From an uncultured delta proteobacterium (GTDB lineage Bacteria > Myxococcota > Myxococcia > Myxococcales > 40CM-4-68-19), in contig CAIWCD010000049.1 of NCBI GenBank assembly GCA_903911145.1, forward strand, positions 62,001 through 126,000: 64,000 nt of DNA, written 5' to 3'. Shown here one piece after another: positions 47,429 through 56,776 of this stretch. The translations under genes and the position numbers were made by a program. The notes below the pieces were generated by a model. That model saw only the letters and a program-made list of their open reading frames with translations. It did not search any database and had not been told where the DNA came from. Position 1 is the first letter of the stretch. Each line of letters starts with the position of its first letter.

Positions 47429-49915
47429 ATGAAGTTCGACGTTTCTCGGTTGCATCGACTCGCCCTCGCCGCTGTCGCTGCTGCGCTCTGCGCCAGTCCG
47501 GCCGCACGGGCGGCACTCCCGAACAATGGCCTCGGCAATAACGGTCTGGGCAACAACGGTCTGGGCAACAACGGCCTAGGGAACAACGGCCTGCCAAACA
47601 ACGGCCTCGGCAACAACGGCCTGGGTAACAACGGGATCGGAAACAACGGCATCGGCAATAACGGGCTTGGCAACAACGGCCTGGGCAACAATGGGCTTGG
47701 CAACAACGGCCTGATGGTTGACGAGGCCCTCGATGTCGCGATCTTCGCAAACCGCGCCATCTTCACTGCGTTCACGACCAACGCGCTGTCGTGCGCGAAC
47801 CTGAACAACATTCCCGCGATGAACCAGGTCTTCTCCACGCAGGTGACGGACACCGGAGTCATGCCGGTCAGCAGCAAGTGGGTTCAGTACATCTACAAGG
47901 ATGTGCACGCCGCGAATGAGCCTCCGTGCATCGTCAAAGACAACTTCCATACTCCGGCCTGGTTTCAACCGATCGCACTGGTCGGCGGCGTTGGACTGTG
48001 CGCGCAGACCTGGGGCGCCGATGCGGGGCTCGCGGGAGACGCGCGGTGCCGTCAGTTGCTCTCCGCGACGCTCGCAACTCAGATGAACCAGTCGGGAGAC
48101 GAGAACGAATACTCGTTGCTCGGGGATAGCAAGACCGGCGCACCGCATCGGTCGACTGTTGCTGGGGGATGGAGCGACGAGGATGCACTGACCCAGCCCA
48201 GTTCGGCAGTCCCGACATGGGCATTTGTATTCAGGACCGACAACCTCGTCTCGTCTCTGCAGTCCTGCACGCAAACCGATGGTGGCACGCTGCCCGCGAG
48301 CGGTTCCACCGACTGCGGTTGGCAGGCGGGGTACAGCTATCGTTGCCACGTCGGCGATGTCGATAGCCTCTCCCTTTCGACCACGGCAACGACGGTCACT
48401 GGCTCAATCATCCCTGTGTCAATCCGGGTGAGCCAGGGAATCATGGGCAGCAACTCGACCGACGCCAACAAGATGGGTGAAGCAACGACCTACTCCCCGA
48501 CGACCGTCCCGACTTCGAACACCGTCGCGTCAGTGAAGTTCACCTGCCCCGCGTCAGAAGTCGTGAACTTCCAATACGCACCGTATAATCGGAGTGACTT
48601 GGCCCGCCTGCTTCTGCCGGGCACCAACCAGCATTCGCAGTTGAATGTGACTGCGTCGAACCTTTCGGCAGCGACGACGGCTCCGGTTGCAACGTATGGC
48701 TATACGTCCACGTGGCCTGTGGGCAAGTTCGGCCCTCTTCCGAGTAACGAGAAACAGGTCTTCACTGCGGCGGAGATGTCGGTGAAGGCGGACTTCTTCC
48801 AGGCCTGGACGGGTGATGCCACGACGTGGAGCCCGCTTAACCCAGCATTCAACCGCAACGCCTGTCAGGTCGGGTACGACACCACGGGACGGGCGCTGAA
48901 CTGTACATCGAAGGGAACGGTCGAACTTGCCTGCGCGGTGACCTGCACCGGCGGCTCGGGTGCGATGGCCAGAATGGCTGCCAACGCGCAGGTGCCGATC
49001 TTCCACGGCGCGGAATGGCTCGACTTCGGATGGAATACTCAGCAGTCGTACTATCTGGCTCGAACCTGCAGCCGGAATGGACAAGCGTGCATCGTCCCTC
49101 CTGCGTATGGAGATGCGACCAACACCCGCGATGCGCCGGATGTGAACAGCGTTGAGCGTCCCCTCTACTGCAAGAGCATCACGGCGCATCTGCTCGATGG
49201 TGGCAGCAACCCTCTCGACAGCGGCGTTGCGACAATCAACACGCTCCAGGACAGCGATGTCTGCAATCACCAGACATACAATGTCGTCAACGGTGATTTC
49301 GAATATGGAGGCTCCACGCTTGGTGCGACGTATGGATGGGCGCTCGACGGAGGGGCAACCGTTGTCGCAGGAGAGGCGCCAACCTATGCCGCGACTACCT
49401 ATGTGGGAAACGCGATCCAGCTTGGCTCGGACGCGGCAACGACAACCGTGCCGGCGACTCTTGACTCTGCGCCGCTGGTCGTGCCCAACGATGGAATCGC
49501 GCGGACGCTCTACTATGCGGAAAATACCGATTGCGCGGGCAATGCATCGGCGGGACTCAACGTGACCGTCGATACCATCGCGGCGACCGGTGCGGTGACA
49601 CACAGCGCCAACCTGGCGAGTGTCGCGTGCCCAACCCAGGCCGGGTGGGCCCAACACATCGTGTCGCTTGGGACTACCTATAACGGCAAGACCATCAAGA
49701 TCCATTTTGACTATCACAGCGGGATCACTGCTTCGCTCGCAACGATCGACAATGTGTTCCTTGGAAATGACGATCCGAACTATACGGTCACGACGTTCTT
49801 CCCGACTTTCTATCCGGGCTATGCGATTGACGCATCGATCAAGTGCGCGGATACGAGATACGGCGCCTGCTGGAGCTTTGGGTACACTTACCCGCCTCCG
49901 TTGAGCCCCAAATAG
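47429..49915 (+). CDS. Large secreted Cys-rich protein with Asn-Asn-Gly pentapeptide repeats
   Basis: An 828-residue exported protein of no family I can name. Signal peptide at 1-29 (ALAAVAAALCASPAARA). Residues 31-95 are 13 tandem pentapeptides, (G/P)NNG(L/I). A long domain follows (about 96-615) with MVDEALDVAIFANRAIF at its start and about 20 cysteines spread over the whole protein, suggesting disulfides. Residues about 619-780 begin VNGDFEYGG and end TIDNVFLGNDD, like a carbohydrate-binding jelly-roll module. There is no C-terminal anchor or sortase signal. A GGAGG site lies five bases before the ATG and a strong terminator follows. It is a likely surface or matrix protein. Confidence 0.8.
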   Translation: MKFDVSRLHRLALAAVAAALCASPAARAALPNNGLGNNGLGNNGLGNNGLGNNGLPNNGLGNNGLGNNGIGNNGIGNNGLGNNGLGNNGLGNNGLMVDEALDVAIFANRAIFTAFTTNALSCANLNNIPAMNQVFSTQVTDTGVMPVSSKWVQYIYKDVHAANEPPCIVKDNFHTPAWFQPIALVGGVGLCAQTWGADAGLAGDARCRQLLSATLATQMNQSGDENEYSLLGDSKTGAPHRSTVAGGWSDEDALTQPSSAVPTWAFVFRTDNLVSSLQSCTQTDGGTLPASGSTDCGWQAGYSYRCHVGDVDSLSLSTTATTVTGSIIPVSIRVSQGIMGSNSTDANKMGEATTYSPTTVPTSNTVASVKFTCPASEVVNFQYAPYNRSDLARLLLPGTNQHSQLNVTASNLSAATTAPVATYGYTSTWPVGKFGPLPSNEKQVFTAAEMSVKADFFQAWTGDATTWSPLNPAFNRNACQVGYDTTGRALNCTSKGTVELACAVTCTGGSGAMARMAANAQVPIFHGAEWLDFGWNTQQSYYLARTCSRNGQACIVPPAYGDATNTRDAPDVNSVERPLYCKSITAHLLDGGSNPLDSGVATINTLQDSDVCNHQTYNVVNGDFEYGGSTLGATYGWALDGGATVVAGEAPTYAATTYVGNAIQLGSDAATTTVPATLDSAPLVVPNDGIARTLYYAENTDCAGNASAGLNVTVDTIAATGAVTHSANLASVACPTQAGWAQHIVSLGTTYNGKTIKIHFDYHSGITASLATIDNVFLGNDDPNYTVTTFFPTFYPGYAIDASIKCADTRYGACWSFGYTYPPPLSPK
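47519..47713 (+). repeat. 13 tandem 15-bp coding repeats
   Basis: Thirteen in-frame 15-bp units encode (G/P)NNG(L/I), with Pro in units 1 and 6 and Ile in units 8 and 9. Synonymous differences between units (aac/aat, ggc/ggt/ggg, ctc/ctg/ctt) show that the array is not very recent. It is the only tandem protein repeat of this kind in the window. Confidence 0.95.
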
Positions 49916-50014: not shown

Positions 50015-53000
50015 ATGAAGCGACCACCGACCGACAACCGCGCCCCTCTCGGTCGCCGTTTGCGCGCATCTCTGTTCCCGCAAACGTGGATGTGCGCTCT
50101 GCGCTGCGCATGGTTCGTTGCGCTTGCCACCGTTCAGGCTGCAATCGCCGAACCTCGATCGGGGTTTGTTGCTGAGGTAGTCCAACCCTCGGCCGCGGAA
50201 CTCTATGACGCGGCAACACCAGCACTGAAGACGTTCACCACTTCGGATGGACTGCCAGACAACACGGTGGAGGGCCTGGCATACGACCGAACCGGGCACC
50301 TGTGGATTGGCACACAGGACGGTGCCGCCGTCTATCTGGGACACTCCTGGAAGCCGATTACATTTCCAGGCACAAAACCCTCGCGCCTTGTTCACGCCGT
50401 CCTGGCGGCTTCGGATGGAAGCATCTGGTTTGGAACAAGCGGAAGCGGCGTCTTCCGACTCAAGAACAACCAATGGAGCTCCTATGACGCAAGTTCCGGG
50501 CTTCCATCGTCTGAGGTTTTCTGCATTGGCGAGACGAACGAGAACAACAGGCCGGTCATCTGGATTGGAACTCGAAATGGACTCGCGAAAATAAAGGACG
50601 GCGCGCTGCGCACAGTCCAGCGTTCTGGCCCTCCTGCAGTCAACACCATCACCGCGCTTGTCACCGATGAATCGACCGGCGATCTCTGGGTTGGTTCCGA
50701 GAACGGTCTGGGGCGAATTGTCCGCGGAAGCGACTCCTACGCGGAGTCGGTAAGACTTTCCGGACGCATGATCCGAAGCCTTCTGGTTGAGCGTGGCGAC
50801 GGCGATCACAACATCCTCTGGGTCGGCACGAACGATGGGTTGGTTTCCTACCAGGGCGAAGCGGCGTCGGATGTTTCCCTGGGCAGCAACATCAAACCGC
50901 AAGTCATTGGCCTGACCCAAAGCCACGAATCCGATGGTTCGGCGACTCTCTGGGTTGGAATCCGAGGTGTGGGATTTGGGAGATTGCACAAGGGAGAGTG
51001 GAAGCAGTTTGGAAAGCAGGAAGGTCTTGCCGACGAGAACGTGATCGCGTTGGCATCAGGAACTTCTGGAGGCAGAAATCTCATCTGGGTTGGAGGCGAC
51101 GGAGGCCTCGTTCGCCTGGCCGAGCGCGGGTGGTTCTCATTCCCATCTGGGCCAGCAGTATTGCGAGGGAAGGCAACCAGCCTGCTCGAAAGCAAAGATG
51201 GAAGCATCTGGATGGCGACCGAGTTGGGGTTGGGGCGTTTCAACCGCGACCACTGGACAATCTATCGACCGCCTGCAAGCAGAGCACAGGACGTTGTCGT
51301 CTCTCTCGTGGAAACAACCATCGACAATGAACTGCGTGTGGTTGCGGGCACGGCACAAGGGAACATTTTTCAACTCAAGGCTGAGGAATGGGAACTTCTC
51401 GCCAACCTCGATCCGGGAAACAATATCGCGCGGGCACTCCTGTCTGTAGTGGAGACGGATGGAAGCACCAGCCTGTGGGTCGGCCTCCAGCGCGGACTCT
51501 TTCGCCTCAAGAATGGAGAAGTGACCCATTACGACACGACTTCCGGACTTCCGAGCGACTGGATTCTCAGTCTCGGCGTCACCTACGGCCCGAGCCTGAC
51601 TCCAACTGTATGGGTCGGTACATATGGGGGACTGTCACGATTTCATGCGGGGCAATGGGAGACGGAATCCAGCCACACAGGGTTGCCGCACGATGTGGCA
51701 TCCGCGATTGCAACCACGAACGACTCGACGCTCTGGGTTGGCACACCGGCAGGAGTGGGCCGACTCAAGCTCACGGCCAAGACGCACAATTGGGAGATTT
51801 TTTCCGATCGTTCCGACCCGGCAGTGCGCGGCGTTGTCTACCAGGTCCGGTCCGATGCGCAGGGGCGGATCTACTTTTTTACAAACAAAGGAGTCTCGCG
51901 CCTGACACTTGGTAAAGAGGGGAACCCAACCGTCACGAGTTTCGGGCAAGAGGACGGCCTTCCCAATGTCGAATGCGTGTATGCCGGCGCGCTGATCGAT
52001 CGGCGCGGGCGTATCTGGGCTGCGACCAATGGCGGCGTCGCTGTGTTCGACCCGACAACGGAACTTCAACATCCTGAACCCGCACCGCTCGAACTCGATC
52101 GCATTCTCGTCAACCGGATCGAACGCCCCGGCGACCAACTCGTGTCGCTCAGGCACGACGAGAACGAAATTACGTTTGAGTATTCGCTACTGAGTTATTT
52201 CCGCGACTCAGACACGCGATACCGTACACAACTTGTCGGTGCCGACAGACTTCCCACCGACTGGGGCACCGACCACAAGCGGGAGTTTTCTACCCTTCCC
52301 GCTGGGCACTATGAGTTTCATATCTGGGCAAAGAACTATGCTGGGATCGTCTCATGGTCGGGCGCGCAGCACTTTGAGATCCGTCGCGCTCCCTGGCTGA
52401 CACCCTGGGCGTTTTTTCTCTATGGAACCATACTGACCGTCGCCGCCTATTCCATGTTCCGTTATCGCACTCGTGAACTACACCGACGAGCTGAGATGCT
52501 CGAGCAGACCGTCGCGGATCGGACCAGGGAGGTTGAGGAGAAGAGGCGAGAGGTAGAGGCCAAGAACGCTGCACTGGCGGCCAGCAATGATGAACTCGAA
52601 GAGAGAAACGTCGAGCTCGTCGAATCCTATAAGCAGGCCGACCGGATCTTCTCGGCGCTTGCGGACGCGCTCTCGGGAACAACGTTGGACGGAAAATTCC
52701 GCCTCGACGAAAAAATTGGGGAGGGTGGCTTCGGCGCTGTCTTCAAAGCAACCCAGATCGCAGGAGGCCCGCCGGTTGCGGTCAAGGTCTTTCGACCGCA
52801 GGCGGGCAATGCCTCCGCTGAGTCGTTGGAACGATTCAGACAGGAAGGAGTCTCAGCAAGTCGGGTCGCGCACAAGAATGCAGTCAACATTCTTGACTCA
52901 GGCATCTCCGCCGAAGGGATCGCCTACCTTGTAATGGAGTTGCTCGAGGGACGATCGCTTTCGGCGGAATTGAAGCAACTTGGTAAGCTTTCCATCCGGC

Positions 53001-53527
53001 GCGCGGGACAGATCGCAAGTTCTGTCCTCAAGGCACTGGCGGTCGCGCACCAGTCTGGAATTGTTCATCGCGACATCAAGCCAGACAACATCTTCATTCA
53101 CCACGATGCCGACGGAGAGATCATCAAGGTGGTCGACTTCGGTGTCGCCAAATTGCGAGACCAGGAGACCAAAGACAAGACCCTGACTGTCACCGGGGCG
53201 ATCGTTGGAACGCCCGCATATATGGCTCCCGAACGGCTTGAGAGTCGACCCTATGATGGGCGTAGCGACGTCTATAGTGTTGGTATCGTGCTCTATGAAA
53301 TGCTGACGGGTGAGCCGCCGTTTCAATCGCAGGAGAACAACATCTGGTCGCTGGTGATGATGCACCTCACCGTCGCACCTCGCGCCTTGAGTGAGCTCGA
53401 CCCGACCATTCCACCCGAAGTTGCGCAGGTCGTGCTTGAGGCGCTTGCGAAGAACCAGGAAGAACGTCCTGACGCGGCGACACTGATTGGGAGAATCGAA
53501 CAGAGCTTTGGATTGACGCAAGGCTGA
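50015..53527 (+). CDS. Beta-propeller sensor fused to a Ser/Thr protein kinase
   Basis: A 1170-residue receptor kinase. A basic start and hydrophobic segment (WMCALRCAWFVALATVQAAIA) exports residues about 50-690, which hold about 13 Reg_prop blades (LWIGTQDG, LWVGTNDG, IWVGGDGG and so on), enough for two seven-bladed propellers. A Y_Y_Y-like domain (ending HYEFHIWAKNYAG) follows, then a transmembrane helix at about 794-816, a coiled coil (about 820-880) and a complete Hanks-type kinase at 891-1165: GEGGFGAVFK, Lys924 in VAVK, HRDIKPDN with Asp1020, and DFG Asp1041. Reg_prop/Y_Y_Y usually sits with histidine kinases; a Ser/Thr kinase output is unusual. Confidence 0.92.
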   Translation: MKRPPTDNRAPLGRRLRASLFPQTWMCALRCAWFVALATVQAAIAEPRSGFVAEVVQPSAAELYDAATPALKTFTTSDGLPDNTVEGLAYDRTGHLWIGTQDGAAVYLGHSWKPITFPGTKPSRLVHAVLAASDGSIWFGTSGSGVFRLKNNQWSSYDASSGLPSSEVFCIGETNENNRPVIWIGTRNGLAKIKDGALRTVQRSGPPAVNTITALVTDESTGDLWVGSENGLGRIVRGSDSYAESVRLSGRMIRSLLVERGDGDHNILWVGTNDGLVSYQGEAASDVSLGSNIKPQVIGLTQSHESDGSATLWVGIRGVGFGRLHKGEWKQFGKQEGLADENVIALASGTSGGRNLIWVGGDGGLVRLAERGWFSFPSGPAVLRGKATSLLESKDGSIWMATELGLGRFNRDHWTIYRPPASRAQDVVVSLVETTIDNELRVVAGTAQGNIFQLKAEEWELLANLDPGNNIARALLSVVETDGSTSLWVGLQRGLFRLKNGEVTHYDTTSGLPSDWILSLGVTYGPSLTPTVWVGTYGGLSRFHAGQWETESSHTGLPHDVASAIATTNDSTLWVGTPAGVGRLKLTAKTHNWEIFSDRSDPAVRGVVYQVRSDAQGRIYFFTNKGVSRLTLGKEGNPTVTSFGQEDGLPNVECVYAGALIDRRGRIWAATNGGVAVFDPTTELQHPEPAPLELDRILVNRIERPGDQLVSLRHDENEITFEYSLLSYFRDSDTRYRTQLVGADRLPTDWGTDHKREFSTLPAGHYEFHIWAKNYAGIVSWSGAQHFEIRRAPWLTPWAFFLYGTILTVAAYSMFRYRTRELHRRAEMLEQTVADRTREVEEKRREVEAKNAALAASNDELEERNVELVESYKQADRIFSALADALSGTTLDGKFRLDEKIGEGGFGAVFKATQIAGGPPVAVKVFRPQAGNASAESLERFRQEGVSASRVAHKNAVNILDSGISAEGIAYLVMELLEGRSLSAELKQLGKLSIRRAGQIASSVLKALAVAHQSGIVHRDIKPDNIFIHHDADGEIIKVVDFGVAKLRDQETKDKTLTVTGAIVGTPAYMAPERLESRPYDGRSDVYSVGIVLYEMLTGEPPFQSQENNIWSLVMMHLTVAPRALSELDPTIPPEVAQVVLEALAKNQEERPDAATLIGRIEQSFGLTQG

Positions 53528-53648: not shown

Positions 53649-54713
53649 ATGGACAAGCCAGAACAGATGATCGAGGATCTTCGTCGTCTGGTTTCAGTGA
53701 CGAAGGTCATTACGTCGTCGCTCAGCGTCGACGAGCAGCTTCCGTTGATCATGGACGCGGTCATCGCGCTTACGAATGCAGACAAGGCGATGCTGCTTCT
53801 CTTTGAAAATGGTCGATATGAGGTGCGCGCGGAGCGGCCCGCGCCCGCAGACACGAAGAGCAGCCGGCCGGCATATTCGACTGGCGTGATCAACCAGGTG
53901 GTTGAGTCAGGTGAGCCGCTCTTCATTCTCGATACCGATCTCCACGCGCAGATGGCCAGACAGGTCAGCGTGCAGGCGATGCAGTTGCGGACGGTCATGT
54001 GTACGCCGCTGCGGTCGAGGACGGGGATCTTCGGGGTGCTCTACGTCCATGCCTCGACGCCGCTGCTGGCGTTCAACGAGCGCAAGAAGGAGATCTTCAA
54101 CTCGCTTTCCGATTACGCCTCGATCGCACTCGACAATGCGCGTCTGTTTACCGCTTCAATCAGCGATCCGATGACGGCGCTGTACAATCATTCCTATGGC
54201 CAGCGGCGCCTGGACGAAGAGCTCATGCGTGCGAAACGACATGGGCGACATCTCAGTTTCGCGTTGATCGATGTCGATAAATTCAAAGCCGTGAATGACA
54301 GTTATGGACACCGCAAGGGCGACGCATTGATATGCGGCATCGCCTCTGCTCTGCGAGGTTCGGTCCGGCAGACCGATATCGTTGCCCGGTATGGCGGAGA
54401 TGAATTCGCCATCATCATGCCTGAGACCGGTGGTTCTACAGGTGCACCTGGGTCTGAGATCTCAGGCTCACGCATTCTCGCGGAGCGTCTGAGAGACAAG
54501 CTGAATGTAGAACTGGTTGCTGGGGTTCCGAAGATCAGTGCGAGCATTGGAATCGCGTGCTACCCAGTCGATTTTCCCAATGAGAAAGAGCGGGAAGATT
54601 TGACGCCAGGAGACCTGGTCGATCGCGCGGACAAGGCGCTCTACGCGGCAAAGAGACTCGGAGGAAATCGAGTCTGTGACGCTCACGAGCAGGCCGCTGC
54701 GCCGTCGAACTGA
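53649..54713 (+). CDS. GAF-GGDEF diguanylate cyclase
   Basis: A 354-residue cytoplasmic protein: a GAF domain (about 20-165) and a GGDEF domain (about 170-345). The active site GGDEF is intact at 249-253, and the product-inhibition site RQTD (240-243) is exactly five residues before it. SDPMTALYNHSYGQRRLDEEL and DVDKFKAVND match active cyclases. No response-regulator receiver is present, so regulation is through GAF. It follows the kinase gene by 121 bp with GAGGAG before the ATG, and is convergent with the NtrC-type gene. Confidence 0.93.
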   Translation: MDKPEQMIEDLRRLVSVTKVITSSLSVDEQLPLIMDAVIALTNADKAMLLLFENGRYEVRAERPAPADTKSSRPAYSTGVINQVVESGEPLFILDTDLHAQMARQVSVQAMQLRTVMCTPLRSRTGIFGVLYVHASTPLLAFNERKKEIFNSLSDYASIALDNARLFTASISDPMTALYNHSYGQRRLDEELMRAKRHGRHLSFALIDVDKFKAVNDSYGHRKGDALICGIASALRGSVRQTDIVARYGGDEFAIIMPETGGSTGAPGSEISGSRILAERLRDKLNVELVAGVPKISASIGIACYPVDFPNEKEREDLTPGDLVDRADKALYAAKRLGGNRVCDAHEQAAAPSN

Positions 54714-56155: not shown

Positions 56156-56776
56156 TCATAGATAGCGTTCGATCTGCTTGAATAGATCGAGTCGGTCGAC
56201 GAGGTTGGTGAGGTAGTCGAGCTTGTCCGTGGAAAGTTCGATGACGGGAGAGAGCGTGTAGCGACCGCGCCACTCATCATAGAGCTTGTTCAGTCGCTTC
56301 AGATACTCAGTCGGGATCTGCTGCTCCATCGCCCTTCCCCGCCGCGCGATCCGCTTCTTGAGAGCAGGCACCGGGCATTTGAGGAAGATCATCAAGTCGG
56401 GAGGCTGCAGCGAACTGGTCACCGAATCAAACAGCTCGCGATACATCTTGTAGTCGCGCGGATCGATCATTCCGGTTCGATACAGGTTCTCGCAGAAGAT
56501 CTCCGCGTCCTCATAGATCGTCCGATCCTGGACCACCGTGCCCGGGTCGGCCATCAACTCGCGATGAAGTCGGAACTTGTGCGTGAGGAAATAGATCTGC
56601 GAGTGGAACGCCCACTTCTTCATATCGGCGTAGAAATCGACCAGATATGGGTTGGTATCGTTCGGCTCGAAGAAGGGCTTGAGCCCGTAGCGTCGGCAGA
56701 GGAACTGAACGAGTTCGCTCTTGCCTGCGCCCATGTTCCCGGCAACGGCGAGGAAGCGTTTTTGGACAGGGCGCAT
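56156..56776 (-). CDS. Deoxynucleoside kinase family protein
   Basis: A 206-residue deoxynucleoside kinase-like P-loop enzyme. Walker A is GNMGAGKS at about residue 13, and DRTIYEDAEIF supplies the substrate-binding Asp-Arg and Glu. The lid carries KKRIARRGRAMEQQIP. It would phosphorylate a deoxynucleoside for salvage, substrate unknown. It ends 25 bp before the sigma-54 regulator and is divergent from plsC. Confidence 0.88.
   Translation of the reverse strand: MRPVQKRFLAVAGNMGAGKSELVQFLCRRYGLKPFFEPNDTNPYLVDFYADMKKWAFHSQIYFLTHKFRLHRELMADPGTVVQDRTIYEDAEIFCENLYRTGMIDPRDYKMYRELFDSVTSSLQPPDLMIFLKCPVPALKKRIARRGRAMEQQIPTEYLKRLNKLYDEWRGRYTLSPVIELSTDKLDYLTNLVDRLDLFKQIERYL

Follow-up and report, generated by a model that had tools for sequence, protein, structure and literature searches.

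Receptor Ser/Thr kinases with an external beta-propeller have a precedent in PknD of Mycobacterium tuberculosis (PMC2877116, PMC1262709), which places a beta-propeller outside and a Hanks kinase inside with one membrane pass between them, the kinase being N-terminal and the single six-bladed NHL propeller C-terminal. Double propellers are found in the Bacteroides hybrid two-component (HTCS) sensors BT4663, BT3049 and BT4673, which combine a signal peptide, a 14-bladed double propeller, a Y_Y_Y domain and a single transmembrane (TM) helix, and Reg_prop sensors are also known from Reg_prop-histidine kinase and Reg_prop-GGDEF proteins. Signaling helices (S-helices) are coiled coils with a common ERT-type signature that join sensor and catalytic domains and have been proposed to restrain downstream catalytic domains until a signal arrives; in the paper describing them, their main outputs are histidine kinases and cyclases, an S/T/Y kinase is one node of the domain graph, propellers go unmentioned, and replacing the ERT threonine by Ile is reported to keep Sln1p from switching off (PMC1592074). 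All of these elements were thus already known separately. What appears to be new in the locus described here is a Reg_prop sensor on a Ser/Thr kinase, a pairing that is uncharacterised in the open-licence papers searched, where neither Reg_prop nor the term "two component regulator propeller" was described together with Ser/Thr kinases.

The receptor gene lies in a 64,000-nucleotide stretch of DNA (the window) from an uncultured member of the Myxococcales, and its features are as follows.

50015..53527, + strand: receptor open reading frame, 1170 aa, frame intact, in the order Reg_prop x14, Y_Y_Y-like domain, TM helix, signaling helix/coiled coil, Hanks-type Ser/Thr kinase
50015..50149, + strand: signal peptide with a long n-region, residues 1-45 (hydropathy peak at 26-45, model helix at 22-44)
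50216..52084, + strand: double beta-propeller with 14 blade motifs, residues ~68-690 (motif count, AlphaFold2 model, Z 37.4 to the BT4663 periplasmic domain)
52085..52390, + strand: Y_Y_Y-like beta-sandwich, residues ~691-792 (Pfam Y_Y_Y E 0.0012, below gathering; the 4a2l alignment reaches residue 792)
52403..52468, + strand: TM helix, residues 797-818, a hydrophobic peak with approximate boundaries (hydropathy and model)
52469..52675, + strand: coiled-coil linker bearing A834-D-R-T837 as its signaling-helix mark (distance from the mark to the G-loop 2 mod 7; S-helix definition from PMC1592074)
52637..52687, + strand: family signature QADRIFSALxxALxGTxLDGK, residues 875-891, at the junction of the coil and the kinase N-lobe (invariant or near-invariant across the family)
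52688..53512, + strand: Hanks-type Ser/Thr kinase domain with complete motifs, residues 892-1166 (Pfam, motifs, fold match)

This architecture is real, and the strength of the matches is far beyond chance. Pfam identified Reg_prop in five stretches (E 2.1e-20) and Pkinase at residues 896-1157 (E 5.8e-55), and the double-propeller periplasmic receptor with one TM helix and a complete Hanks-type kinase that had been read from the letters by a sequence-only reading was borne out by Pfam, motifs and fold match alike. That reading was right about the propeller but undercounted its blades at about 13: we counted 14 motifs (starting at residues 96, 137, 182, 224, 268, 312, 357, 398, 442, 487, 532, 573, 619 and 667, at a spacing of ~43 residues), which is the number needed for two seven-bladed propellers. 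The Y_Y_Y-like domain that it had also proposed is upheld by the coverage of the 4a2l alignment, although the Pfam score stayed under the gathering threshold. Two hydrophobic peaks fit a signal peptide at 26-45 and a single TM helix at ~797-818, which put the propellers outside and the kinase inside. All kinase motifs are kept, namely the G-loop (902-907), VAVK (K924), E944, HRD (D1020), DFG (D1041), APE (E1073) and R1151; the Asp1020 singled out earlier for mutation is the catalytic-loop aspartate of the HRD motif. An inactive or accidental fusion, whether a pseudokinase or a sequencing or assembly artefact, is refuted on sequence grounds and retains next to no probability: within its order (145 genomes) the protein stands alone, as such an accident might, but its frame is uninterrupted, its catalytic motifs are complete, and it has a full-length homologue and dozens of relatives.

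Structure prediction, which had been set beforehand as a check on the propeller, returned a double propeller matching BT4663. The AlphaFold2 monomer model of the receptor (37-sequence alignment) had a mean pLDDT of 83.7, with coil residues 827-847 poorly resolved (pLDDT <50). The modelled ectodomain superposed on the periplasmic sensor of BT4663 (4a2l) with Z 37.4 and an rmsd of 3.4 over 674 residues at only ~20% identity, and the HTCS sensors BT4663, BT3049 and BT4673 as a group matched it with Z 33-37 over 647-684 residues; the modelled kinase superposed on PknB with Z 32.5 and an rmsd of 1.8 over 259 residues. Foldseek likewise ranked BT4663 (4a2l) first for the ectodomain and PknB first for the kinase, and hybrid two-component sensors were the sole matches when the PDB was searched with the ectodomain sequence. 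PknB/PknA-type kinases are alike in the catalytic domain (Z 30-32, ~35% identity), whereas the window receptor has no PASTA domains and carries its kinase at the C-terminus; the NCBIfam PknB_PASTA model gave 268.9 bits against a cut-off of 450, and no NCBIfam model names the receptor protein. In contrast to PknD, the receptor has two seven-bladed Reg_prop propellers and a Y_Y_Y-like domain at its N-terminus, with the signaling helix lying between these and the kinase. It also differs from the Bacteroides HTCS proteins in its output, since Pfam detected only Pkinase on the cytoplasmic side, with no HisKA/HATPase, receiver or AraC HTH domain, and no polysaccharide locus was seen nearby. Lacking a histidine kinase, the receptor falls outside the HTCS class, although up to the kinase it probably works as HTCS proteins do.

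The coil between sensor and catalytic domains, an EMLEQTVADRTREVEE coil, contains the mark A-D-R836-T837; the consensus of the family described below is RTAEL at this position, and single members mostly have ERT. Every one of the 48 non-redundant members with an ERT-type motif had it at a distance of 2 mod 7 from the G-loop. Nine different lengths occurred (37, 58, 65, 72, 79, 86, 93, 100 and 128 residues; 65 in the window protein), and were these random and mutually independent, the chance of such an outcome would be ~7^-8 = 1.7e-7, a figure that becomes less extreme once shared ancestry is considered. Propeller-free members with the ERT motif followed the same rule, members without it had lengths of either 6 mod 7 or 3 mod 7, and the segment from the membrane-side WA motif to ERT was exactly 38 residues in 40 of 41 Ser/Thr-kinase members. 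In a histidine-kinase control of just six proteins, the lengths were 26 and 54 residues in HExRTP types, four heptads apart, and 42 in HEINNP types. The best reading of these lengths is that the register, or rotation, of a continuous coiled coil would matter for the kinase as it does in histidine kinases, and the exact 2 mod 7 rule suggests that a Ser/Thr kinase is here coupled in a locked register, in the manner of a histidine kinase. The main alternative, that the seven-residue steps record tandem DNA duplication of heptad units and not selection for register, draws on near-identical consecutive heptads in some coils (e.g. NQELDSK NVELDSK NVELASK in L161), but we consider it improbable, given that the rule held without exception in 48 of 48 members over nine lengths, that most of the sequences show no obvious recent duplication, and that the TM-to-ERT segment shows next to no length variation.

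We infer kinase activity, dimerisation and ligand-driven gating according to the following scheme. The receptor, probably a dimer, would sense a periplasmic ligand through the double propeller and Y_Y_Y-like domain, whose fold is shown by modelling, and the ligand would change how the two ectodomains of the dimer are arranged, a step that has been proposed for hybrid two-component sensors. The movement would pass through the TM helix to the signaling-helix coiled coil, whose fixed register relative to the kinase points to mechanical coupling. The coil leads directly into the kinase N-lobe and may thereby permit or block N-lobe pairing and trans-autophosphorylation, presumably at the activation-loop sites T1058/T1060, which align by eye with T171/T173 of PknB; Ser/Thr substrates would then be phosphorylated. 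Taken as a whole, this explanation, a single-pass inner-membrane receptor kinase with a Ser/Thr output on a two-component input and a register-coupled coil, appears to us fairly probable.

To place the receptor among its relatives, we define the QADRIF-linker Ser/Thr kinases as proteins in which a QADRIFSAL..AL.GT.LDGKYRL linker is fused to the kinase, a definition that the window protein fits. It was the sole Reg_prop protein found in its own genome, and the genus mate G008 (88% complete) lacks its gene, which marks the gene as accessory. Related sensors of the same order carried histidine kinases wherever the output was readable by motif, in agreement with the usual pairing that the sequence-only reading had named, and no second sensor-kinase junction of the receptor type was found in the 145 genomes of the order. 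A sensor-only scan of the genome collection yielded no relatives, a junction scan of viral contigs no match, and a plasmid search no match to the sensor-kinase junction that spanned 80% of the query; the best 10 plasmid matches included Reg_prop proteins with HK, GGDEF or cyclase outputs. A full-length homologue of the same architecture, 38% identical over 1118 aa, was present in a MAG of the Myxococcota group (G157, MAG SJ496; L070/L098). The junction-based scan of public genomes recovered 27 loci. Nearly all came from a pair of MAGs that are Acidobacteriota-like, namely Blastocatellia SSF51 and a MAG that is labelled Actinomycetota but has scaffolds named WN_Acidobacteria; in addition there was a Myxococcales MAG, whose member (L073/L149) has a membrane N-terminus and no propeller. 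Scores were bimodal, in that family members matched the whole linker-kinase model and generic kinases matched from the N-lobe on only; by linker-covering matches, there were 43 copies in MAG G195 and 16 in G196. The module occurred in at least 14 of 396 Acidobacteriota genomes sampled (best 11 matches per genome scored), among them 3.7 Mb genomes with two large replicons. One carrier, G311, we take to be Chloracidobacterium thermophilum, so that the family probably has a cultured host. Reg_prop Ser/Thr kinase genes also stood in tandem pairs in Acidobacteriota (L132 4160-7828 and 7611-11483; L144 4317-8084 and 8364-12161), one of them in a two-replicon genome. The sequence-only reading, which had set itself to be refuted if the combination of Reg_prop and Pkinase proved common and characterised, missed both the recurrence of this combination in Acidobacteriota and the heptad-locked signaling-helix linker; recurrent as the architecture is, it is nevertheless undescribed in the papers searched.

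The inputs of the first 28 members comprised Reg_prop (20), Y_Y_Y (18), 7TMR-DISM (5) and GAF (1), and further members had 7TMR-DISM with PAS or response-regulator receiver domains, in one case also with HisKA. Thus, with Reg_prop, 7TMR-DISM, PAS, GAF and receiver partners, a Ser/Thr kinase output is attached to a wide range of two-component inputs. A related linker joins receiver domains to Ser/Thr kinases in L105 (1-2436), L107 (766-2448), L119 (922-2463), L150 (9083-11299) and L153 (6029-7612); the additional HisKA of L105 suggests a His-Asp to Ser/Thr relay in one chain.

Both halves of the receptor grouped with Acidobacteriota proteins in trees. The kinase tree, in which the bootstrap had not settled, divided the family and the myxococcal kinases sampled into separate groups (100/100) and placed the three Myxococcota-group members as a clade (100/99) inside Acidobacteriota rows (98/80). 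In the sensor tree, the window and G157 sensors paired (99/93) and grouped with the sensors of Ser/Thr kinases from Acidobacteriota, plus one sensor from that phylum with another output (100/99), apart from the Myxococcota histidine-kinase sensors; this tree requires at least 4-5 switches of output type. We rejected the idea that the two halves were joined within Myxococcota, since each had its nearest relatives among Acidobacteriota members. The GC content of the stretch (0.57-0.59 versus 0.65) agrees with acquisition from Acidobacteriota, though the low GC reaches beyond the receptor gene. The simplest reading of the trees is that the receptor gene was acquired from Acidobacteriota, the direction of transfer being the one that the nesting suggests, and the family was probably assembled there and passed to a few Myxococcota.

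The genes scanned around the receptor encode a GST, a secreted Asn-Gly-repeat protein, a GAF-GGDEF protein, a sigma-54 regulator and a deoxynucleoside kinase, of which three were mapped as follows.

47429..49915, + strand: secreted protein, NNGLG pentapeptide repeats at its N-terminus, 99 bp upstream of the receptor gene (positional counterpart in L070)
53649..54713, + strand: predicted GAF-GGDEF diguanylate cyclase, 121 bp downstream of the receptor gene
56159-56776, - strand: deoxynucleoside kinase (Pfam dNK, E 2e-51), beside the sigma-54 activator

Sensing of an oligosaccharide, as in the Bacteroides hybrid two-component sensors and as the sequence-only reading had supposed, is rather unlikely. 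The nearest solved ectodomain is that of the heparin/heparan sulphate sensor BT4663, and calorimetry has shown HTCS ectodomains to bind defined oligosaccharides (PMC3243724); however, Pfam found no carbohydrate-active genes among the scanned window neighbours, and hence no link to a polysaccharide utilisation locus, none stood out on visual inspection of the Acidobacteriota loci, PorZ uses the same fold (although it fell below the cut-off here), and identity to BT4663 is low. That the sensor instead reads a protein partner, with the upstream secreted Asn-Gly-repeat protein as cognate ligand, anchor or co-receptor, we also regard as unlikely. In both the genome of the window (G000) and G157, the Asn-Gly pentapeptide array occurs at a single locus, immediately upstream of the Reg_prop kinase on the same strand (~13 NNGLG copies in the protein upstream of the window receptor; NGRPS repeats in the secreted G157 neighbour, L070 5828-7600), and Myxococcota NG-repeat genes elsewhere adjoin Ser/Thr kinase genes at 15 of 31 further loci versus ~8% of background positions. 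Against a partnership, the two upstream proteins resemble each other only weakly in their globular parts, Acidobacteriota family members have no NG-repeat neighbour, and many NG-repeat genes lie away from any kinase gene. When 195 genomes of the phylum were searched at 1e-6, the globular part of the window NG-repeat protein had no homologue; the predicted structure of this protein reached a pLDDT of only 26, and its profile match to the L228-type NG-repeat family was weak (E 0.034). For Myxococcota, the pair of NG-repeat protein and receptor nonetheless offers the most promising clue to a ligand or a partner.

At the NG-repeat loci outside the main two (L228-L259), the kinase of those 15 lay within 600 bp, and some reading frames overlapped the kinase frame, which makes individual cases less certain. 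A Pkinase-nSTAND1-FGE-sulfatase protein (L231, L233 and L234 scanned) beside an ADYC-domain NG-repeat protein was a recurrent myxococcal pair; the ADYC-bearing NG-repeat proteins scanned were L231, L236, L238 and L249, one of which also scores as a pentapeptide repeat, and ADYC is unmentioned in the eLife paper on STAND conflict systems. Downstream of the receptor, the GAF-GGDEF gene is a possible operon mate, although it is not conserved in L070, and its product may form a c-di-GMP branch of the receptor pathway; no close homologue was found in its family. Promoter and terminator scans gave nothing above chance.

The switching of bacterial receptor Ser/Thr kinases by their outside domains is poorly understood, and the sensor side and signaling helix of this receptor, both of a kind well studied in two-component receptors, together with the exact seven-residue rule over nine lengths, make a mechanical model directly testable. 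A broader proposal, that two-component inputs (Reg_prop, 7TMR-DISM, PAS, GAF and receiver, plus the signaling helix) have been re-plugged onto Hanks-type kinases that would be gated by coil register exactly like histidine kinases, with the Myxococcota receptor paired with its secreted Asn-Gly-repeat partner, is a tentative one to which we give slightly less than an even chance. The family itself shows two-component and eukaryote-like outputs to be interchangeable on one sensor, many times within single genomes.
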